A stretch of 64,000 nucleotides of DNA from Candidatus Sysuiplasma acidicola (GTDB taxonomy: Archaea; Thermoplasmatota; Thermoplasmata; Sysuiplasmatales; Sysuiplasmataceae), in NCBI GenBank assembly GCA_019721035.1, contig JAHEAA010000007.1, positions 1-64,000 on the forward strand. Direction: 5' to 3'. This document shows, piece by piece, positions 15,952 to 59,852 of this stretch. Position 1 is the stretch's first letter; every line of letters starts with the position of its first letter. The notes under the pieces were generated by a model that searched no databases, had not been told where the DNA came from, and saw nothing but the letters and a program-made list of their open reading frames with translations. The translations under genes were made by a program, and so were the position numbers.

Positions 15952-16048
15952 ATATTCGTCAATCTCATTTCATGGAAGTGTGATGAAATATATTTATGAG
16001 TGATTGCTACACTATCTTTACTGAGCATGCTGTTTGCTGTGCAAATTG

Positions 16049-16591
16049 ATGGTGATTCAGCTGAATGAGGAAATAAAAACTAAAGTCTGTCTGGTCGGTG
16101 ACAACAATGTAGGCAAGACCAGTCTTATAAGGCGGTTCGTGCTGGACTCGTTCGACGACAAGTATACGTCAACCATAGGCACGAAGGTAACGAAGAAGGA
16201 GGTCAACGTAAAGAGGGATAACGGCCGTGAAGTCAGCCTGTCCATGCTTGTATGGGACATTATGGGCCAGAAGGGATTCAGAGAGCTGCTCAGGGAATCA
16301 TATTTCTACGGGGCGGAAGCGGCTGTTTGCGTCTGCGATGTGACAAACAGGGAATCCCTGGATGAACTGAAATACTGGATCAAGTCGATGGAGAGCATCA
16401 CCGGCCATATACCGATGATATTCATCGGTAACAAGAACGATCTTGTTGATCAGATTGTCGTAACGAGGCAGGATATAGACAAGGTTGCCACATCATACGG
16501 CTCTCCAGCAATGGTTACGAGCGCCAAGACCGGTGAGAATGTGGAAGCTGCCTTCATGCGCCTTGCTTCCATGCTGACTGCAAGAAAGTAG
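16049..16591 (+). CDS. Ras/Rab-like small GTPase
   Basis: A 180-residue GTPase with all G boxes: G1 GDNNVGKT (residues 17-24), a threonine-rich switch I, G3 WDIMGQ with the catalytic-type glutamine at 74, G4 GNKNDL and G5 TSAKTG. It lacks a lipidation signal and is a single domain, like other archaeal Ras-superfamily proteins. A TATA-like atatatttatgag is at about 15985-15997; the ATG at 16049 gives the best N-terminus, with TTG at 16034 as an alternative. It precedes the giant surface-protein gene by 53 bases on the same strand, which suggests a functional pair. Confidence 0.9.
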   Translation: MVIQLNEEIKTKVCLVGDNNVGKTSLIRRFVLDSFDDKYTSTIGTKVTKKEVNVKRDNGREVSLSMLVWDIMGQKGFRELLRESYFYGAEAAVCVCDVTNRESLDELKYWIKSMESITGHIPMIFIGNKNDLVDQIVVTRQDIDKVATSYGSPAMVTSAKTGENVEAAFMRLASMLTARK

Positions 16592-16644
16592 TGCAGCATC
16601 ATTCTTATCCCCTGCTCCGCTGATGTGTACGAGGAGAGTTGCAG

Positions 16645-19600
16645 ATGCATCACAAACATGGAATGGGCGGGGCGCTGCTCGTTGTCTTCCTCCTGCTCTC
16701 TTCCTCATTCGTGTTTTTTTCGCAGAATGCCCAGGGCTCTCCAGCCCCGGCAAGCTCGACCACGACATTCTATCTCCATGACGATCAGCACGGTTTCGGG
16801 CATCCCGGCAAACGCTATGACTGGGCAAACACCTCCCGACCCTACAACCCGCTGAATCCGAATTTCATAAGCAGCAGCTATCAGGGTATATTGCTGAACA
16901 ACTCTCCGCCGTATGATTCATTCCGGTGGATCGCCTATCCGTCGGTAGGCGTTCCAGTTATGTTGAACGGCACCGTTACCGTCAGGCTCTATCTCACACC
17001 GTCGAACACATCCACCGGCATACCCTTCAATTTTACTGTGACGCTACAGAACGATACCGCGGGCCAGGTGCACAAAATCACACAGGGCTCGACTGGCAGC
17101 ATATCCCTGGTACCGAACGAGCAGGTCAACGTGACAATGAATATTTCCCCCCAGCCGTACAGGCTTTCCGCCGGCAGCGGCCTGATTCTGAACGTCACCA
17201 GGACTGACGCGAATTCCCTCGCATCTGTGTATGTGGAGTTCGACTACAATTCCACGCCGTCCAGCTTCAGTGTTTCACTGACGCCGCGTATCTCGGGTGT
17301 GGCGATATCCGCCGGCAGCACCATCTATGACAATCAGAGCTTCACTGTCGGTGCGTCGGTAACGGATGCACTGGGACGCGGGGACATAGCATACGCGACA
17401 CTGTCCGTCGTGAACCAGAGCGACATCACCGTTCTGAGCGGCGTCGGCATGATGCTGTCGTCATACAGCACGTATGCATCGAACTTCACTGCCGTCATCG
17501 GTCCACTCCACTACGGGAAGTACGTTCTTTATGTCACCGCCGGGACGAAGTCGAATCTCTCCGGCGGCAACGAAACATTTCTGCAGAGCTATAATCTGAC
17601 GGTACTGCCGTCGCTGGGCAGCTTTATCGTTTCTTCTCCCGCCGCTTCAACCGCCGGCGCGTCCTTTTCAGTCGAGGCGCAGGCAGTAGCCGACGACGGC
17701 CTGAATATGACCTCATTCAACGGCACGGCGGCCGTGCAGATAGTGAATAGCAGCGGAACGCCTCTGCCGCAATCGCTCTATTCGCCTCACACTGCCGCAT
17801 TCGTCTCGGGTGTTTCGAACATCAGCGCAGTGATCACTGAAGAGGGTAATTTCACCGTCATTTTTTCATCAGGCAGTGCTACGGGAAGCGCTGCAATACA
17901 CGTGTCCGCAGGTCCTGTGAGCAGTATAGCGGTCCGCCCGTCTGTATATTCAATGCTCGCCGGCTCCACGGAGAAATTCACCGCAACAGCCAGTGATGCT
18001 TACGGCAACGTCAACACGACATGGCAGCCTTCATGGAACGTTTCCGGCGGCATAGGCAGCATAAGCCCGAACGGCACCTTCACGGCGACGACCGCCGGAG
18101 TGGGCATGATAACCGCAAGCGACGCAACCACTGGCGTCTCGGGTTATGCGAATGTTTCTGTATCATCAGGATCGCTGTTTTCGCTCCAGATAAACCCGTC
18201 AAACGAGACGGTGCTAGCAGGAGGAAGCTACTTCTTCCAGGTTTCAGGTTTCGATGCCTACGGAAACTATGTTCAGCCTGTGAATGTTGTGTGGTCCACA
18301 AACGCAGGCACGCTGTATGCCAACGGGAGTTTCGCGATGCTCAACGTTACGGCTTCCCTCATGTCAGCCGCGTACGTCGAGGCTTATTCAGCCGGACTCG
18401 ATGCCATCTCGCTGCTGACTGTCGTGCCTTCGGCCTACAGCCCGCAGATAGTCACGCCTGTCGTCAACCTTACAGAACCAGCAGGTCATGCATGGTCTGT
18501 GAACCTCAGTGCATATGTATCAAATCCAGACGATCCGACGGGACAGGGAATGGAATGGTTTCTTTACGGCGGCGCAAAGCTCTTCTATACCCTGGGTTCA
18601 GGCATCTTCGGCAACACTCAGATAACCTTCGTTCCTTACCCTGGCGCTTATGGCCGTGCAAATGCAACGCTTCTGGTCATCAACAGGCAGGGCTACAGTG
18701 CGTCCATGGAATTCAGCATAACGCTGCTGCCCAGGCCCGGATGGATAAACCGTCTCCCGCTTTACATGTCAGTGCGCGGGGGAACTACATACTTGCTCAA
18801 TTACACGTATTTCATCGACTCGTCGCCCTTCGCCGTGAACCAGATACGCGTGAGCACGAACTCGCTGTTTGTCTACGTTTCGGGTCAGTCCCTGAACTAT
18901 CTGTTCCCCGTGACTGCTGTCGGACGTACTTTTCCGATTGTCATTACTGCGACGAACCCGGACAATCTGAGCACCAGCATAATTCAGATTATTTCGGTTG
19001 TTTCAACGGCGCCTCCTTCGCTGGACACCAGAAGTGCCCCTCCATCGTTCATATCTGTCTACAGGGGGCAGAATGTGACGCTCGCGTCTCCGCTTTCCGC
19101 TTATTTCAACAGCGCGCAATATCTGCATTTCAGCATCATTTCCGGGGTAGTGTCAACCTATCTGTCGGGAACCGGCATACTCTACATATCTGCGCCTGAA
19201 AGACCCTCGACATTCAACGGAACGGTTCTGGTCGAGGCGAACAACAGCGCCGGAGGGTATGCTTTTCTCTTCCTGCACGTCGGCATCGTGAATATTGTAA
19301 CTCCTCCGGTGGTTAAACCCATCCCTGTAATCAGTGTTCATTACGCGACGGCCGGAGTCCGTGCGTACACCATTTCGCTCCTTCCCTACGTATCGGACAG
19401 CTACTTACCTCTGTACATGATTTCAGTATTTCCCGGATCCGGATACATCACGTTCAGCAGGAGCAATTTTTCGCTCTCCTTTTCCCTGCCTGCAAACGTT
19501 TCCGGAGGCTCCGTATACAACGGTCCTTACTGGCTCAACACCACTTTGCTCTTAATCGGCGGCCCGCTCTCTGAGATATCCAACGATTCCGTGAGCGTGG

Positions 19601-20661
19601 GACTCGCGGTATACGTATCATCCAATTATCCTCCCGCTGTTATTTCCGGCGTCTCTACGCCGACGTTCATTTCCGTTTCTGAGAATGGCATGAATGCTGC
19701 ACTCAATCTGTCGCGCATCTTCTATTCGCCTCAGAACAGTCCCTTGAGCTATGGCGGAAGTGCCGACAATCTGTCGATTTCAGTTTCGCAGTATGGCCTC
19801 GTGACAATACGTCCTGAGAAGTATTTTGTCGGCAGCGTCAGAGTCGATTTCACCATCGGCTCTGATTACGGCTTTGCAGACTACAGCGTCCTCGTCTACG
19901 TCTATCCGGTTTACATTCCCCCTGTAATAAGCCTCCCTGCGCACATTACGACAAAAACGGCGACATTCGTGGTCAATCTGTCGCGGTACATTACCGATCA
20001 TAATAGCGTACCGCTCACGATAAGCGCTGCAGGAAGTGGTGTGACGGTTGTCGGCTCAGACATGCTCGTTTCTCTGCCGTCCGGTTCGCAGGGGGAGACG
20101 ATCACGCTGTTCTTCACCACACCGCAGGGAACGGTGATTGAAAGAACGATCGGCGTGCAGCTTCTGTCGCCAGTGCCAAACGTGTACGCCCTCCTGTTCT
20201 ACGGCCTACTCTTCATCGTGATTCTATTTGCGGCCCTGCTCACATACAAACGGCTCGTTCCGCACAGATTCCAGCTCAACTCCGTTCTGCTCATTCACAA
20301 TGACGGCAGGCTGATCGCATATGGCCACAGGGAGGACTACAGGGGAATGGACAGAGATCTCGTAGTGGGTATGTTCACTGCAATCCAGGACTTCGTCTCC
20401 ACTTCCTTCCCCGAGATGGACGGCTCCCATTCCCTGAACAGGATTGAGCTTGGCGATTACAGCATTGCCGTCGAGCGCGGCAGGATAGTGTTTATTCTTT
20501 CAATCTATTCGGGCGAAACGCCGAAAGGGTGGAGTGAAAAACTGCGCGCTACCATTGACGGTATTGAGAGGACATACCAGAACCTCGACGCCTGGGACGG
20601 AAAGCAGGAGGGCATAGAGGGCATAGGGGCAATAATCTCGGCTCTGTTCCAGAGCAGATGA
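16645..20661 (+). CDS. Giant membrane-anchored surface protein with cytoplasmic roadblock/longin-like domain
   Basis: The 1338-residue protein starts with a signal peptide (hydrophobic GALLVVFLLLSSSFVFF). A long ectodomain of about 1160 residues follows, rich in Ser, Thr, Asn-x-Ser/Thr and Ig/cadherin-like beta repeats. One transmembrane helix (YALLFYGLLFIVILFAALL) leads to a C-terminal domain of about 155 residues. That domain begins SVLLIHNDGRLIAYG and continues with DLVVGMFTAIQDFVSTSF, LGDYSIAVERGRIVFIL and NLDAWDG. The pattern of strand-turn-strand, helix and strands suggests a roadblock/longin-type fold, a class known to bind small GTPases, but this is my inference. The start at 16645 has gaggag 8 bases upstream. 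It follows a Ras-like GTPase gene, so it may be a receptor acting on it. Confidence 0.8.
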   Translation: MHHKHGMGGALLVVFLLLSSSFVFFSQNAQGSPAPASSTTTFYLHDDQHGFGHPGKRYDWANTSRPYNPLNPNFISSSYQGILLNNSPPYDSFRWIAYPSVGVPVMLNGTVTVRLYLTPSNTSTGIPFNFTVTLQNDTAGQVHKITQGSTGSISLVPNEQVNVTMNISPQPYRLSAGSGLILNVTRTDANSLASVYVEFDYNSTPSSFSVSLTPRISGVAISAGSTIYDNQSFTVGASVTDALGRGDIAYATLSVVNQSDITVLSGVGMMLSSYSTYASNFTAVIGPLHYGKYVLYVTAGTKSNLSGGNETFLQSYNLTVLPSLGSFIVSSPAASTAGASFSVEAQAVADDGLNMTSFNGTAAVQIVNSSGTPLPQSLYSPHTAAFVSGVSNISAVITEEGNFTVIFSSGSATGSAAIHVSAGPVSSIAVRPSVYSMLAGSTEKFTATASDAYGNVNTTWQPSWNVSGGIGSISPNGTFTATTAGVGMITASDATTGVSGYANVSVSSGSLFSLQINPSNETVLAGGSYFFQVSGFDAYGNYVQPVNVVWSTNAGTLYANGSFAMLNVTASLMSAAYVEAYSAGLDAISLLTVVPSAYSPQIVTPVVNLTEPAGHAWSVNLSAYVSNPDDPTGQGMEWFLYGGAKLFYTLGSGIFGNTQITFVPYPGAYGRANATLLVINRQGYSASMEFSITLLPRPGWINRLPLYMSVRGGTTYLLNYTYFIDSSPFAVNQIRVSTNSLFVYVSGQSLNYLFPVTAVGRTFPIVITATNPDNLSTSIIQIISVVSTAPPSLDTRSAPPSFISVYRGQNVTLASPLSAYFNSAQYLHFSIISGVVSTYLSGTGILYISAPERPSTFNGTVLVEANNSAGGYAFLFLHVGIVNIVTPPVVKPIPVISVHYATAGVRAYTISLLPYVSDSYLPLYMISVFPGSGYITFSRSNFSLSFSLPANVSGGSVYNGPYWLNTTLLLIGGPLSEISNDSVSVGLAVYVSSNYPPAVISGVSTPTFISVSENGMNAALNLSRIFYSPQNSPLSYGGSADNLSISVSQYGLVTIRPEKYFVGSVRVDFTIGSDYGFADYSVLVYVYPVYIPPVISLPAHITTKTATFVVNLSRYITDHNSVPLTISAAGSGVTVVGSDMLVSLPSGSQGETITLFFTTPQGTVIERTIGVQLLSPVPNVYALLFYGLLFIVILFAALLTYKRLVPHRFQLNSVLLIHNDGRLIAYGHREDYRGMDRDLVVGMFTAIQDFVSTSFPEMDGSHSLNRIELGDYSIAVERGRIVFILSIYSGETPKGWSEKLRATIDGIERTYQNLDAWDGKQEGIEGIGAIISALFQSR

Positions 20662-23426: not shown

Positions 23427-24284
23427 TCATTCGGAAAGCATGAATGCTCCGATCCTGTTCTGTCCTTCCGCATTCCTTTTTCCGGCCCAGACAGTGATTG
23501 TTTCAGCGCTGCATTTCCTTTCCAGTTCCTCCGCTATCCTGACTGCACTCTCCGCAGGAGCAGAGGCGGTTTCAACAAACAGGCACACCATGCCTCCTCT
23601 GCCCGATGCATCATGCATCTGCGCCAGAAGCGCGTGTGCTGTCTTCTTCTCCCACCCTTCTCCAGTCGAGTGATCGACAGAATAGGTGCATCTGTAATGT
23701 TTTCCTGTGAGTCCTTTCGTCCATTCTGCGTCTGCGTGCTTCACAAGCTCTATCAAAGGCGACGAGACTATCCTGTTCATCACTGGCAGGGCCTGCGTCA
23801 TTTTCATGCCTGGCGTGCTTTCCAGCACTATATTGTTCTCGAACGCCGCAGTCAGATTCGCGCTTGCCTGCAGTCTGTCGAGATCTCTTCTGGCTTCCGC
23901 CCTTCTCATGCCGCCCTCAACGCCAAATGGAAGAGCTACGGAGGCAATGACCGGAACAGACAGCGCAGCGGCTGCCTTTGAAACCACGGCGGCTCCCGAG
24001 CCGCCGGCAAATCCTCCCAGGCCGGCAACTACGAATGCTGCGTCGCGACCCTTGAGCAAGGAACGCATCGTCCTGACAAACGGCACATCTGCATATTTGA
24101 GCAGCCGCGGTTCCATCTCCCTTACGGACAGCGTGCCGGCATCGAGCTGTATGTCTGCTCCGTATGAATCCACGCTGACGCAATCCAGCTTCCTCAACTC
24201 CCTGCCGATGTTTTTTCCGCTTCCTCCGCAGCAGAAGAGCAGTGGACGCAGGCTGCTGCTTTCCCTTATCTCTATTCTGCTCAT
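23427..24284 (-). CDS. Divergent FtsZ/tubulin-superfamily protein
   Basis: A 285-residue protein with an N-terminal CCGGSGKNIGREL (compare FtsZ GVGGGGGNAV) and a tubulin signature variant GLGGFAGGSGAAV at residues 88-100 (usual GGGTGSG). The VASVALPFGVEGGMRRAEA strand and helix match FtsZ VAVVTKPF-x-EG. It is shorter than FtsZ (about 350-400), and the region after residue 160 lacks the NxDxxD catalytic T7 loop needed for GTP hydrolysis in polymers. It may bind nucleotide without making normal filaments. The start is an ATG at 24284; it is divergent from the antiporter gene. Its role in division is unproven. Confidence 0.72.
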   Translation of the reverse strand: MSRIEIRESSSLRPLLFCCGGSGKNIGRELRKLDCVSVDSYGADIQLDAGTLSVREMEPRLLKYADVPFVRTMRSLLKGRDAAFVVAGLGGFAGGSGAAVVSKAAAALSVPVIASVALPFGVEGGMRRAEARRDLDRLQASANLTAAFENNIVLESTPGMKMTQALPVMNRIVSSPLIELVKHADAEWTKGLTGKHYRCTYSVDHSTGEGWEKKTAHALLAQMHDASGRGGMVCLFVETASAPAESAVRIAEELERKCSAETITVWAGKRNAEGQNRIGAFMLSE

Positions 24285-39117: not shown

Positions 39118-42100
39118 TCAGTCCGGCGGCTCAATCTCGGCCGGTTTGGGCGGTCTTGGTGGCGGATGTGGCTTTCCCGGTGTGCTGGTCTGCACGGACG
39201 TTGAACTTATTGTGAATTCAGTCATATTGTGATTGTAGTTTCCTTGTATGTCGAACGCGGTCGCGGTGAAGTTATATGTGCCGTCCGGGAGCACTGTTTC
39301 GTTTACGATCCATGTGTAGGTGTTTCCATTCACGGCCATGGGCGGAGAAATAACGTACGCGTAGCCACCGCTCGTATAGTTTATGGTTCCGGCCACATTC
39401 TTCAAATCACCGGATCCGAACGGGCTGAAAATATTCGATGTGATATAGACTGTACTGTTATGAGCTGTGGCCATCAGTGGCGACATATCCACTGGATTGT
39501 AGACGGGCAGAGCCAGGGATATCGGATAATCCTGGCCGCTGTGCAGCAGGATGGCATAACCTATGTTGGTGCCTGCAGTCTGAAGCATGTACCAGGAGAC
39601 GGACATGGAAATGTAGGCACCCGATGGCAGGACGCCGGATTCGGCAAGGAATGGCACATTGTATTCCACAACCGATCCGTCCGTGGGAAGATTCAGCGTC
39701 AGTGAAGCGCTTCCGATCGCATACTGTCCCGCGTTTACGCCGACGTCAACTGTCACAGGAACGGATGTCAGATTTCCTGAACCGGCCAGCGGCTGCAGGG
39801 AAAGGAAGAAATGAACATAGCTTGTGTTGACCTGCGACAGATATAGGCTTGCTGACGTTGGCTGATCCAGGCTGAACTTCCAGGTACTCGGGCCAAGCAC
39901 AGGTGCGAGATAGAAACTGTTGAAATCGTTCTGACCCGACGGGAAGGTCGTGTTCATGCCGAAGCTTGTGGCGCCGGAGCTGGCGGCGGATGAGACATGC
40001 TGTGCATATAGTGCAACTACCTGCGGATATTCCAGGAAAACAGTGGTCGGCGGCGTTGGATAGAATGTGCCAAACAGAACGCTGCCATTCTCGTAGCCTA
40101 TGCCGCTGCCCGCTACTATTTCGCGTGAACTGCTGTTGTATGCTGCTACGCCGTACGGGTTGGGGAAGAAGTACGGCGGTGAATATGAGCCGTATATGTT
40201 TGTCTGTTCCAGACTCATCTCGGAGGCTACTGGATAGAATACCCCTCCTCTCACATAGCTCATGTTTCTGAACACTGCGGGTCCGAGTATGTTGTACTGG
40301 CTTGTTACGCCGAGTGCCGAAACCAGAAACTCCGGCGCATTGCGCCCGCTGCCTGTAGCCGCTGTCGAGTAGGTTGCAACGGTGACGGCATTGACCCTGA
40401 ACGACCACTGATATGGGGAAGTTTCAACTATTGTGTAGTTGTTGAACGTGCCGTTCGTTCCCGCACTCCCCGCGATCCCGTAATCGGTGAATGCCGTTCC
40501 AAATTGACTGCTTGATGGTATGATGCTGTAGAACCAGGCACCTGACGGGATGAAATTGTTGACGGCATAACCCAGCATCAGTGTAGTGCCGTCGGAGAGT
40601 TTTTCACTCACGTAGAAGAGATTGGAGGATGAACCTACAGCTCTGTCCGGCAGGACGGTTTGAACGACGGCAGAAATGCCCGTGTTGTTTGTGCTGTTGA
40701 AGTCTCCGTAGGCACCGGCAACGTATCTGTATTCGGCAAGTTCACGGGCAAGGAATGATACGTCCGGACTCCCGATACCCGTCACTGGATCCCATCCGTG
40801 GGAGGCATTGTAGTAGCCGCCCGGGCCGTTGAATCCCACAGTTACATCGTGGAAGCTGCGGTTGTAGACAGGTGAGTTCAGTATACTGTACAGCGCGGGA
40901 TTGAGGAAGCCCAGTTGCGTTCCCTGCACAAACGCAACGTACGAGTCCATGGTCGCCACCATGCCTCCCCATGCCGGAGAGGCAAAGCTGGTTCCGCCAA
41001 ATAGGTATGACCCCCCAGTCTGGCCGTTGAATACGAAATCGTTACCTCCGAACATTGCGTTTGCTGAAACGTCGGGAATTCCCCGTTCACCGGCGGCAGT
41101 TCCGTTGACCGGAAGTCCGTATCCTGTCTGCCAGTACGGTCTGGGGAAGATGACGCTGTAACCGCCGCCGGTATATCCGTCCCATGCCGTCTCATTGACC
41201 ATAGCGACGGGGTTGAAGACTTCAGGGACTTCCGGCGGGCCGTTAAGCGGGTTGCTGACCGTCGACACTGTTCCGTTCATGAAAATTGTCGTGCCGCCGA
41301 CTGCAGTTACATACGGGTCATCGGAGGGCCAGAGCACTGATCTGGGAACGCTTGCGTCATAACCCGCAGAACCCTGATCTCCGGAAGCGGCAAGTACCGT
41401 TATACCTTCCGCAGCCGCCATCTTGAAGAACGGATGCATGTAGGTTGCAAACGATCCCACTTCGGGTTCGGGGGCTCCCCAGCTGTTTGAGATGACGTTC
41501 GCGAGCTGATTCGTGATGAGATAAGCGACGGTCTGAATCAGAGTGTAGCCTGCATCCGGCGACACCACTGAAATAACGTTCGCCTGAGGCGCAAAACCGT
41601 GAGACAGTTCGGCGTCAAGCGAGGTCTCCACTTCCCACAGACTGATGGCAGCATTGAGCGACTGCGTCACGGTACCGAGCAGATTCGGTTGCCCGAACGG
41701 ATACATGGTTTGAAACGAAGCCGGGGATGGAAGATTGTACAGGCTATCGTAGGTGGCCATATCTGCTGCAAGAGTCGGATCACCGTACGCATCCGTCACG
41801 GCGACAGTCTCGTATTGCCCCTGGTATCCGCTGTTCATCAGCGCCGTCTCATTGTAAGCGAGCTGCATGGCATACGGAGTGTATGGAGGTTGCGGAGATG
41901 CTGCTCCTCCGAAGCCGTTGTTGGACGCGTTCACTGCCTGGCTGACTGTCATATTGGACGCCGGATTGACGAGCAGCATTGACTGTAGGTAGGGATAATT
42001 GGAAAAACCGATTGCACCGCTTATCATCCCGGAAAATGAGGACGGCACACAGACTGCTTCCGTATTGAAATAATATGCACCCATCTGCGTGTCGTAGAGC

Positions 42101-42657
42101 TGAATGCTTGTGTTGAACACCGTGTCAAACTGGGTAGCAGGGCCGTACAACTGCATGAACAGTCTGTCGTTTCCCGGCACGACTGTTATGCCGTTCGAAC
42201 TGTAGTATGCCGCAATCGACTGGTAGACAGCCGCACTCGGTTCAAAAAATTTCATGAATGAAGCATGTGACATGTAGTGTCCGTACTCGGGGCTTGCCGG
42301 ATTGGATACCTGCCTGAGGAACTGTGAAAGCAGAGTGCTGTTGACCGTGTCGAGTCCCAGAAATACCGTTATGTTTTCGCCGATCAGCGGTCCAATGGCG
42401 AGCGAGCCTGACGGAATATAGGAAACACTACCCTGCAGTTCGGAGAGCGAATTTGAGGAAACAAGCGAATCAGTTGTGGATGTTATTGATGAAGGGGTGG
42501 TGCTCAATGTCCCGCCCTCACTTGTGCTCCGCCCCAAGGGCATCTTTGCCGAAGAGATTGAACTGTGGAACACGGGAATCCCGATGCCGGTCATCAGCAT
42601 AGTCACAATAACGGCCACACCAATAACAAACAACAGCCTGCTTCGTTCATGAGACAT
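39118..42657 (-). CDS. Secreted sedolisin (S53) peptidase 1
   Basis: A 1179-residue acid-active serine-carboxyl peptidase. The order is signal sequence (FVIGVAVIVTMLMTGIGIPV), prokumamolisin activation domain (about residues 85-225, with SNPASPEYGHYMS), catalytic domain (about 265-680), then about 500 residues of beta-rich domains and a proline-rich tail (KPHPPPRPPKPAE). Catalytic residues are E344/D348 (EVETSLDAE), oxyanion D427 (ASGDQGS) and S557 (GGTSFASP). No C-terminal membrane anchor is seen, so it is probably released or cell-wall bound. It is divergent from a TrmB-type regulator, with 223 bases between starts. Confidence 0.93.
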   Translation of the reverse strand: MSHERSRLLFVIGVAVIVTMLMTGIGIPVFHSSISSAKMPLGRSTSEGGTLSTTPSSITSTTDSLVSSNSLSELQGSVSYIPSGSLAIGPLIGENITVFLGLDTVNSTLLSQFLRQVSNPASPEYGHYMSHASFMKFFEPSAAVYQSIAAYYSSNGITVVPGNDRLFMQLYGPATQFDTVFNTSIQLYDTQMGAYYFNTEAVCVPSSFSGMISGAIGFSNYPYLQSMLLVNPASNMTVSQAVNASNNGFGGAASPQPPYTPYAMQLAYNETALMNSGYQGQYETVAVTDAYGDPTLAADMATYDSLYNLPSPASFQTMYPFGQPNLLGTVTQSLNAAISLWEVETSLDAELSHGFAPQANVISVVSPDAGYTLIQTVAYLITNQLANVISNSWGAPEPEVGSFATYMHPFFKMAAAEGITVLAASGDQGSAGYDASVPRSVLWPSDDPYVTAVGGTTIFMNGTVSTVSNPLNGPPEVPEVFNPVAMVNETAWDGYTGGGYSVIFPRPYWQTGYGLPVNGTAAGERGIPDVSANAMFGGNDFVFNGQTGGSYLFGGTSFASPAWGGMVATMDSYVAFVQGTQLGFLNPALYSILNSPVYNRSFHDVTVGFNGPGGYYNASHGWDPVTGIGSPDVSFLARELAEYRYVAGAYGDFNSTNNTGISAVVQTVLPDRAVGSSSNLFYVSEKLSDGTTLMLGYAVNNFIPSGAWFYSIIPSSSQFGTAFTDYGIAGSAGTNGTFNNYTIVETSPYQWSFRVNAVTVATYSTAATGSGRNAPEFLVSALGVTSQYNILGPAVFRNMSYVRGGVFYPVASEMSLEQTNIYGSYSPPYFFPNPYGVAAYNSSSREIVAGSGIGYENGSVLFGTFYPTPPTTVFLEYPQVVALYAQHVSSAASSGATSFGMNTTFPSGQNDFNSFYLAPVLGPSTWKFSLDQPTSASLYLSQVNTSYVHFFLSLQPLAGSGNLTSVPVTVDVGVNAGQYAIGSASLTLNLPTDGSVVEYNVPFLAESGVLPSGAYISMSVSWYMLQTAGTNIGYAILLHSGQDYPISLALPVYNPVDMSPLMATAHNSTVYITSNIFSPFGSGDLKNVAGTINYTSGGYAYVISPPMAVNGNTYTWIVNETVLPDGTYNFTATAFDIQGNYNHNMTEFTISSTSVQTSTPGKPHPPPRPPKPAEIEPPD

Positions 42658-57212: not shown

Positions 57213-57410
57213 ATGGTGGCGGATATAACACTCCTGATAAATCCGTTTTCCTAAAGTCAGACCTGAGGCCGAAACGGATTGCTTCAGTCCAGAACCAAAG
57301 CGGCAATCTGTGGCTATTATGGAACATCTGACGGCGAAGATGCTGGTGCTACTGCACAAAATCTTGAACAAAGTCTTTTAAATATACCTATCAATGGACT
57401 TAAGCAAACG

Positions 57411-59852
57411 ATGCGCCGAGGTCAAAAAACAGCCGTGGTAATCGTCATTTCGCTATTGATAGTCAGCGGAGCTTTTTATTACGGCGGACAACCTGCGAAT
57501 CATGTGAATAAAACAGCGTCAGCGGTACCGTCAAACTCTGCAAGTGGAGTCGATTCACTGACTAATTCTGTTTATCTTACGTCGAATAATTCAAAGCTCT
57601 TCCCGACACCTGTGTGGGTTCTTTCCAAGACTCCTTCTTTGATCGTTCCCAGAAATCAGACTGAGATATCACTCAATCTATCTGTTGCAACATCAGGTTT
57701 TGCTCTGTTCCATCCGGGTGAGAACCAGGCGAATCAGCAGACATCTTCGATATCGCCACCAAATAGCACTTCCGCATTTGGCTGGATCACTCCATTTCAC
57801 CCGAACACTACGATTCCGGCTGGTAATTGGTCATTGAGTGTTGGCATTAACCACACAGCCGGCACTTCCGGTATTGGAACCGTCACGCTCAACGCAAGCG
57901 CTTATTCGTGGAATAACTCCAGCAAGAGCTTTGCATATATTGGTTCGTTCCAGAATTCTCGTTTAAATCTCGCGAATACATCTATTGCCAACATGATTGT
58001 CAATCTGAGCGGAAAAATGCCCGAGACGGTAATGGGTAATAATGCAAGTATTTTTGTTGAATATTTTATTTGGTTGAATGGTTTTTCCTCAGCAACGCCA
58101 TTCACTTTAGCTCTGGACACAGGCGGCTCTTCCGATTCTTCATATTTTGTGAAGTACCCTCATTTCGGGTGGCTGAACGGATCGGTAAGTCCGGCTAATG
58201 CCACTGTCACTGTTAATGGAAGCGCTGTCACTTCCATTCATGACGGTCTCTTCAATCTCACCATTGGTCAGGGAACATACTGGGTCAATGTTTCCCTCCC
58301 CGGATACAGAAATTACTCCAGTCAGATTTCTATAGTTTCAGGTTTCAGTTCGTACCTGAATGTGAAACTTTTGAGGGAGTATGTTGTCAACGTGACGGAG
58401 AAAGGGCTACCGGCCGGAACACAATGGTCTGTCAACCTCTCCGGTATGGTCAGATTGCTGTCAACTAATTATACACGATACCTGGTAGTTAACGGCACTT
58501 ACGATATGATCATTGGAAGCGTTCCCGGCTACCACATCGACCCTTATCAGTCCAATGTAACGATCAACGGCAGTGCCAGGAATGTCTCTCTGACGTTTAC
58601 AGTGGCGGTTTACGGCGTCATTTTCAATGAAAGAGGGCTTTCGTTACCGCAGCTGTGGGGCGTCTCGATAAACGGCGTGAATCACACGTCCGAGTCATCC
58701 TCCATTTCAGTGAGTCTGTCAAATGGCACGTACAATTTCACGGTTCTTCAAGTTCCTCGCTTCGCCGTGACACCTTCCTCAGGAAGTTTTAGAGTTTCAG
58801 GCAACGCGTCCTCAATGACTTTGATTTTCACACTGCTCAACTACACTGTCTTCTTCAGGGAAAACGGTCTGCCGATTGGTGCAAAGTGGACTGTGACACT
58901 CGACGGCGTTAGTCAGGAATCAAACCGGACGGTTATCGCATTTAACGAACCTGAAGGATCTTACAATTATTCAATAAATCTCCAGAGCGGTTACAGGATA
59001 CTCAACGGCTCCGGAACAGTTACTGTTTCCGGCGGAAACGTCACAGTAAACGCTACTTTTTTGACTGTGAAGGCAACACCGGGCAACATTTTTTCACAAC
59101 CGCAGGGACTCATTTATTTCCTCATTATAGTCATCATTCTGGTGCAGGTGGAAGTGGTCGCCTCCATGCTTTATTTCAGAAGGAACAGGTCCAGGAGCAC
59201 TCACGGAAAGAACGACTCCTCAGGCAACACCAACGATGAAAGCCTGAATGCATCTGCACGTCCGGTTTCGCAAATACTTGCTGCATCAGGCTCTGCATCT
59301 GCATCCGGCGCCGTTTCCTTATCGGGACCTCCGGGTGGGACGACAGGCACAAACGCTCCCTCATCCGTTGGTGGCGCTCGAAACTTTGCCGCAGAGGCCG
59401 TGTTCGAGTATGGTTGCACGTATGCAGTCTTCGAGGAGACTGCAGAAAAGTCCATCTCCCTGTTCGAGGTCGCCCTGAAGAAGGGACTCAGGGGCATATG
59501 CTTCACGCGTGAATACCCGGACAAGCTCTCCCGGAAGCACGATCTCGCGGGCGCAACCGTGATATGGCTCTCCAATATCGGGAGCCAGAATTCGATAAGA
59601 CCAAAAGATCTTGAAAAAATTACTCTTCAATGCAACGAAGCCCTGAATGCATCACAGTGCATCATAATGATAGACGGGCTGGAATATCTCATAACAAACA
59701 ACGGTTTCATCAGTGTACTCAAGCTGTTGCAATTCCTTAGAGATGCAACGGCAGTTAACAGCTCCATCCTCATAATATCGATAAATCAGCATGCTATAAA
59801 GGACAGCGAAGTGAGTCTCCTCAGAAGAGAAGTGGACAGAACAATAGAGTAG
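57411..59852 (+). CDS. Surface protein with cytoplasmic DUF835 domain
   Basis: An 813-residue protein. It has an N-terminal signal/anchor (AVVIVISLLIVSGAFYYGG), an Asn-glycosylation-rich ectodomain with at least three repeats of the thermopsin-associated type (VNVTEKGLPAGTQWSVNLSG, VIFNERGLSLPQLWGVSING, VFFRENGLPIGAKWTVTLDG), a transmembrane helix (LIYFLIIVIILVQVEVVASML), a Gly/Ser linker and a C-terminal DUF835-like domain (SISLFEVALKKGLRGICFTR, CIIMIDGLEYLITNNGF). DUF835 is RecA/KaiC-related and thought to signal. The ATG at 57411 lies about 30 bases after TATA-like cttttaaatatacc. It may report outside conditions to the cell. Confidence 0.85.
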   Translation: MRRGQKTAVVIVISLLIVSGAFYYGGQPANHVNKTASAVPSNSASGVDSLTNSVYLTSNNSKLFPTPVWVLSKTPSLIVPRNQTEISLNLSVATSGFALFHPGENQANQQTSSISPPNSTSAFGWITPFHPNTTIPAGNWSLSVGINHTAGTSGIGTVTLNASAYSWNNSSKSFAYIGSFQNSRLNLANTSIANMIVNLSGKMPETVMGNNASIFVEYFIWLNGFSSATPFTLALDTGGSSDSSYFVKYPHFGWLNGSVSPANATVTVNGSAVTSIHDGLFNLTIGQGTYWVNVSLPGYRNYSSQISIVSGFSSYLNVKLLREYVVNVTEKGLPAGTQWSVNLSGMVRLLSTNYTRYLVVNGTYDMIIGSVPGYHIDPYQSNVTINGSARNVSLTFTVAVYGVIFNERGLSLPQLWGVSINGVNHTSESSSISVSLSNGTYNFTVLQVPRFAVTPSSGSFRVSGNASSMTLIFTLLNYTVFFRENGLPIGAKWTVTLDGVSQESNRTVIAFNEPEGSYNYSINLQSGYRILNGSGTVTVSGGNVTVNATFLTVKATPGNIFSQPQGLIYFLIIVIILVQVEVVASMLYFRRNRSRSTHGKNDSSGNTNDESLNASARPVSQILAASGSASASGAVSLSGPPGGTTGTNAPSSVGGARNFAAEAVFEYGCTYAVFEETAEKSISLFEVALKKGLRGICFTREYPDKLSRKHDLAGATVIWLSNIGSQNSIRPKDLEKITLQCNEALNASQCIIMIDGLEYLITNNGFISVLKLLQFLRDATAVNSSILIISINQHAIKDSEVSLLRREVDRTIE

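Follow-up and report, generated by a model that had tools for sequence, protein, structure and literature searches.

A small GTPase and the giant surface protein encoded beside it in Candidatus Sysuiplasma acidicola probably form a transmembrane longin-GTPase signalling module, a reading to which we give a probability of about three in four. The two genes lie in a stretch of 64,000 nucleotides (hereafter the window). This pair has relatives throughout Thermoplasmata and in many bacteria, suggesting an old route for signals through the membrane. A first-pass annotation of the window had described a complete small GTPase gene, followed on the same strand after 53 bases by an ORF of 1338 residues with a signal peptide, a long Ig-like ectodomain, one transmembrane helix and about 155 cytoplasmic residues resembling roadblock/LC7 or longin folds in their strand-helix pattern. 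The features of the two genes as they stand after the present analysis are listed in Table 1.

Table 1. Features of the GTPase/surface-protein gene pair in the window
Feature	Position	Strand	Basis
Rab-like small GTPase, 180 aa	16049..16591	+	Pfam Ras, motifs, nearest solved structures
Single-pass surface protein, 1338 aa	16645..20661	+	ORF; 53 nt after GTPase stop
Signal peptide, ~31 residues, MHHKHGMGGALLVVFLLLSSSFVFFSQNAQG	16645..16737	+	sequence; cleavage site approximate
Ser/Thr/Val-rich, Cys-free, Ig-like ectodomain	16738..20187	+	sequons; domain matches in homologues
Transmembrane helix, residues 1183-1204	20191..20256	+	AlphaFold2 model H2-23
Predicted cytoplasmic longin-like domain, residues 1210-1333, b-b-a-b-b-b-a-a	20272..20643	+	AlphaFold2, PDB fold matches

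The GTPase gene is complete from the ATG to the stop codon, as first described, and its product matched the Pfam Ras family with an E-value of 9e-38, the nearest solved structures being Rab1 and Rab8 (1.7e-28). The G motifs are all intact, including G1 (GDNNVGKT), the switch I threonine, G3 (DIMGQ), G4 (NKND) and G5 (SAK). With both the Asp and the Gln of G3 in place, the protein is, as judged from its sequence, Rab-like and not MglA-like. Its C-terminus contains no cysteine for lipidation. The coordinates also agree with the initial description of the gene order, the ATG of the surface protein being on the same strand with a 53-nt interval from the GTPase stop codon. A TATA-like stretch was noticed, by eye only, at about 15986-15998, approximately 50 nt 5' of the GTPase start.

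The surface protein starts with a hydrophobic segment, which is present in its homologues as well, in agreement with the predicted signal peptide. The single transmembrane helix was also confirmed, while the length of the cytoplasmic part had to be corrected to 134 residues. The whole protein is free of cysteine, and the ectodomain carries 43 N-glycosylation sequons, compared with a mean of 15.6 and a maximum of 29 in 500 shuffled sequences. The Ig-like nature of the ectodomain was upheld in the homologues only: Big_2 and Big_9 were detected slightly under the curated Pfam cut-off in two orthologues, and PKD, Big_9 and cadherin-like matches in more distant members, but the Pfam search of the window protein itself gave no Ig-like match in this region. 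The orthologues range from 1336 to 1490 aa and have the same GTPase upstream. Three other proteins of the window were recorded in passing: a large protein combining PEGA-type repeats and C-terminal DUF835 (57279-59849), which may be another surface protein that signals through a cytoplasmic tail; a short divergent tubulin/FtsZ-family protein of 285 aa with a partial GTPase-domain match (23430-24284, minus strand); and a 1179-aa protein with a pro-kumamolisin activation domain (39121-42657, minus strand).

The fold of the cytoplasmic tail was predicted by AlphaFold2 from two alignments with no sequence in common, one (A1, the basis of the first model) composed of 24 archaeal tail homologues and the other (A2) of bacterial sequences. 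In the model from A1 (pLDDT 80.5, pTM 0.66), the transmembrane helix is followed by b1-b2-a1-b3-b4-b5-a2-a3, the order of elements known from longins, and the model from A2 (pLDDT 83.1) shows the same longin topology, the pTM of both being moderate (0.66-0.69). When the archaeal model was compared with the PDB using Foldseek, the best among the matches listed was Sec22b (TMt 0.74, TMq 0.61), and these matches also included Ykt6 (0.64/0.57) and TRAPP (TMt 0.64). Among the matches listed for the bacterial model were Sec22b (0.71-0.74), sigma-adaptin and Mon1-Ccz1(-Ypt7). The PDB matches listed for both models were either longin/roadblock proteins themselves or chains from complexes assembled on such proteins, with zeta-COP, LAMTOR, MglB and sigma-adaptins also in this group, and the TM-score of the tail model to solved longins exceeded 0.5. 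On these models, the tail is predicted to be a longin-type domain of the longin/roadblock superfamily, with its elements in the modelled order of longin rather than that of MglB or roadblock. The fold first proposed for the tail is thus supported in its longin form, and no confident fold outside this superfamily was obtained. The conserved positions of the tail include LIH.DG.L, D.D....MFTA[IV]Q.F, G...I.[EK].G, SG, IE..Y and W[DN]G.

Searches of Pfam and NCBIfam with the tail and the whole surface protein of the window gave nothing significant, longin and Robl_LC7 included, and the PDB sequence search with the tail profile gave chance matches only (designed helices, ClpB, DnaJ). Weak Pfam hints were obtained for single members of the alignments: Robl_LC7 in 3 of 24 (best 0.0027), Fuz/MON1 longin-1 in 2 of 20 (0.083) and Intu/CCZ1 longin-1 once in each set (0.19 and 0.088), only the first two recurring in more than one member.

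The window genome (1.97 Mb) contains one such GTPase (E <= 1e-5) and one such tail, and the two are adjacent. Conserved adjacency in related Thermoplasmatota, on which the first-pass annotation had made its functional link depend, was found in all 8 genomes of the window's family, including one (G005) in which the surface ORF, located after the GTPase, extends past the end of the available stretch. The pair is adjacent in distant Thermoplasmata too, though the flanking genes differ; the two genes are kept together between two archaeal lineages with unlike surroundings. No third gene conserved directly beside the pair was found across both lineages; a recurrent cluster (c2) is common to both but lies several genes from the pair. 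A scan of GTDB genomes with one peptide pattern yielded 412 relatives of the tail, of which the best 80 loci were read. Among the 87 tail proteins in these best 80 of the 412 loci, 38 have a GTPase on the same strand within 400 nt, located upstream in 22 archaeal cases, downstream in 4 archaeal cases and downstream in all 12 bacterial cases. The remaining 49 have no adjacent same-strand GTPase, many of them being at contig ends. A natural GTPase-tail fusion was not found in 20 regions, nor were relatives found in viral contigs.

Other arrangements of the domain were observed as well. In some Thermoplasmata (L104:1425-4145 and L115:293-3283), the same longin-like domain is found inside the ATPase domain AAA_16 or shortly after its start, with TPR repeats behind it, an arrangement resembling an insertion into a STAND-type ATPase. 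In proteins of about 175-320 aa (L097, L109, L117, L144, L145 and L147), the domain is joined to a zinc ribbon or a short C-terminal CxxC motif; these proteins are soluble or have two transmembrane segments, without ectodomain. Three spaced or two tandem copies are present in L089:5449-11991 and L103:8191-9936, of which the tandem could represent a natural dimer.

The bacteria among the 80 loci belong to many groups, with MAG labels as given: Thiotrichaceae, Pseudanabaenaceae, Verrucomicrobiia, Planctomycetota, Alpha- and Zetaproteobacteria, Acidobacteria and Desulfovibrio. Comparison of A1 with A2 by hhalign gave a probability of 99.9 and an E-value of 2.2e-37, and by this profile alignment the archaeal tail is clearly homologous to the juxtamembrane domain of bacterial OmpA-type proteins. 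The bacterial domain is located directly before the transmembrane helix, and the archaeal domain directly on the opposite side of it; several of the bacterial proteins have an OmpA domain at the C-terminus. The G3 glutamine is absent from the bacterial partner GTPases and present in most archaeal partners. The next genes in bacteria encode GGDEF-EAL, histidine kinase-receiver or sigma-54 activator proteins.

Such neighbourhoods in bacteria were described as Rup Group 1 by Wuichet and Sogaard-Andersen in 2014, in which a small GTPase lies beside a membrane protein with a conserved domain, a transmembrane segment and OmpA (PMC4316618). The conserved domain was reported there without an assigned function and was not named as longin, and in that study the prokaryotic proteins most closely related to eukaryotic Rab/Ras were among the Rup GTPases (PMC4316618). 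From the matching architecture and neighbours, rather than from their sequence list, the bacterial domain of the present study is identified with that of Rup Group 1.

Dimers of roadblock/longin proteins serve as platforms that bind small GTPases, in most cases with the role of an exchange factor and in some with that of a GTPase-activating protein (PMC10933270, PMC3521125). In the proposed module, Ig/PKD-type repeats outside would be connected through one membrane helix to the juxtamembrane longin domain inside, which by analogy with these platforms may form a dimer. The longin tail would bind the Rab-like GTPase, probably co-transcribed with it, and, since this GTPase carries no lipid anchor itself, would keep it at the membrane. 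The tail may then set the GDP/GTP state of the GTPase when the ectodomain binds a ligand, takes part in adhesion or is clustered. The bacterial counterparts would sense through OmpA, their peptidoglycan-binding part, and would act on a kinase or a c-di-GMP enzyme as output. For the tail itself, the role of an exchange factor or docking platform has slightly better than even odds. We lean towards the exchange factor, which comes slightly ahead on the basis of the MON1/CCZ1 hints, the Mon1-Ccz1-Ypt7 match and the Rab-like partner.

A tentative alternative of clearly lower probability is a passive role of the tail, as effector or anchor: the GTP-bound GTPase would dock on it and so influence how the surface protein adheres or where it is placed (inside-out signalling), as modelled on the docking of SR-beta to the SRX longin of SR-alpha. 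This role is consistent with the missing lipid anchor of the GTPase, with the presence, among the top fold matches, of adaptor longins whose binding of Arf involves no exchange activity, and with the adhesive appearance of the ectodomains (Big, PKD, cadherin-like, CBM); an exchange-factor complex, Mon1-Ccz1-Ypt7, is however likewise a top match, and sequence does not separate the effector role from exchange activity.

A GTPase-activating role of the tail, which like MglB would then turn off the GTPase near the receptor, is improbable. Roadblock and longin have a common core, MglB is such an activating protein (PMC3521125), the weak Robl_LC7 matches point in the same direction, and a nearly invariant Gln is present in the tail helix (TAIQDF); moreover, since the bacterial partner GTPases are without the G3 Gln, something must complete their active site. 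In contrast, the window GTPase retains the catalytic Gln (DIMGQ) and thus does not require a residue in trans, the tail keeps its TAIQ glutamine with either kind of GTPase, with or without a glutamine of its own, and both the topology and the best fold matches of the tail are those of longin, not MglB.

The tail (E <= 0.1) was detected in 72, and the GTPase in 75, of 100 related genomes. Under a stricter threshold for the tail and with the window genome itself excluded, 68 of 99 relatives have both, 1 has the tail only, 6 have the GTPase only and 24 have neither, the sole tail-only genome being 57% complete. The losses cluster in three families, so that genome counts are not independent, and for this reason presence and absence at the family level are not significantly associated (Fisher p 0.23). 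The copy numbers, transcribed by hand from search tables, range from 1 to 34 per genome, and those of tail and GTPase are correlated (Spearman 0.92 over the 99 relatives, 0.85 among tail-positive genomes, 0.84 with genome size partialled out), as are the family means (0.89). As a control, the copy number of Robl_LC7 roadblock genes was compared with that of the GTPase, giving 0.76 over all 99; within GTPase-positive genomes, the value was 0.08 given the tail, while that of tail and GTPase given Robl_LC7 was 0.82. Pairing of the MglB type was rejected, as both Robl_LC7 genes of the window genome are located on other contigs (C18 and C20) and roadblock copy number shows no independent link to these GTPases. 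Beside the roadblock gene at L163 (G000:C20, ~25.9 kb) of the same genome, a V4R domain gene was observed just below the cut-off, this domain having TRAPPC3 among its relatives.

Inheritance of the two genes in a common operon for an unrelated reason, such as service of both to the cell envelope without interaction, would fit the tail proteins lacking an adjacent GTPase (about half) and the concentration of losses in few families, but is very unlikely, because the copy numbers track each other across genomes after the controls and the pairing recurs in bacteria and archaea with opposite gene order and differing other domains.

The combination of a small GTPase with a roadblock/longin partner is already known as a general kind. 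Our search of the literature outside subscription journals found neither the archaeal receptor nor a longin of Rup systems described, and no paper joining longin, OmpA and small GTPase. We know of no regulator of the Rup GTPases since their definition; with the longin-GTPase module they gain a testable partner, and the longin-GTPase pair gains a receptor form. The platform fold of eukaryotic Rab regulators is here predicted on single-pass surface proteins outside Asgard, which opens to test both prokaryotic transmembrane signalling by a receptor and a Ras-type switch, and a longin-Rab coupling older than eukaryotic traffic. The module could be a major sensory system, so far unannotated, in genomes that carry 10-30 paralogues per side. 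That the longin tails are transmembrane forerunners of the eukaryotic longin RabGEFs, with clustering of ectodomains assembling longin dimers that would load the Rab-like GTPase with GTP, is rather unlikely; if true, receptor-controlled Rab switching would have existed in non-Asgard archaea, and in bacteria through the Rup systems, before eukaryotic membrane traffic.

Among known systems, SRX of SR-alpha and SR-beta combine a longin domain and a GTPase at the membrane, as proposed for the window pair, but there the GTPase is membrane-anchored and the longin protein is not, and no ectodomain is present. Longins may also bind SNAREs or cargo instead of GTPases. MglA-MglB of Myxococcus likewise couples a small GTPase to a protein of the roadblock/longin superfamily; in contrast to the window pair, MglB is soluble with roadblock topology, MglA is without the G3 Asp, and there is no transmembrane receptor. 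The tri-longin RabGEF Mon1-Ccz1, and likewise TRAPP, have a longin core and a Rab-family partner, a likeness to the tail seen in fold matches and weak profile hints with sequence scores below significance, but are soluble multi-domain or multi-subunit complexes without ectodomain. Asgard archaea have both longin-fold proteins and Rab-like GTPases, the GTPase genes being generally outside operons with longin or roadblock genes (PMC10933270), whereas in the window the two genes are adjacent and the longin is carried on a receptor. The archaeal system has its relatives in the Rup Group 1 neighbourhoods of bacteria and not in MglAB. Rup Group 1 also has a Ras-superfamily GTPase with the G3 Asp, no adjoining MglB and a membrane protein with the homologous domain, and the window GTPase, at 180 aa, is within the Rup range of 150-240 aa, with the G3 Asp and no adjacent MglB homologue. 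In Rup Group 1, however, the GTPase is without the G3 Gln, the gene order is reversed, the domain precedes the transmembrane segment and a periplasmic OmpA end, and a gene for a c-di-GMP enzyme or histidine kinase follows; in the window the Gln is kept, OmpA is replaced by a giant Ig-like ectodomain placed before the transmembrane helix in the opposite order, and no output gene is adjacent.
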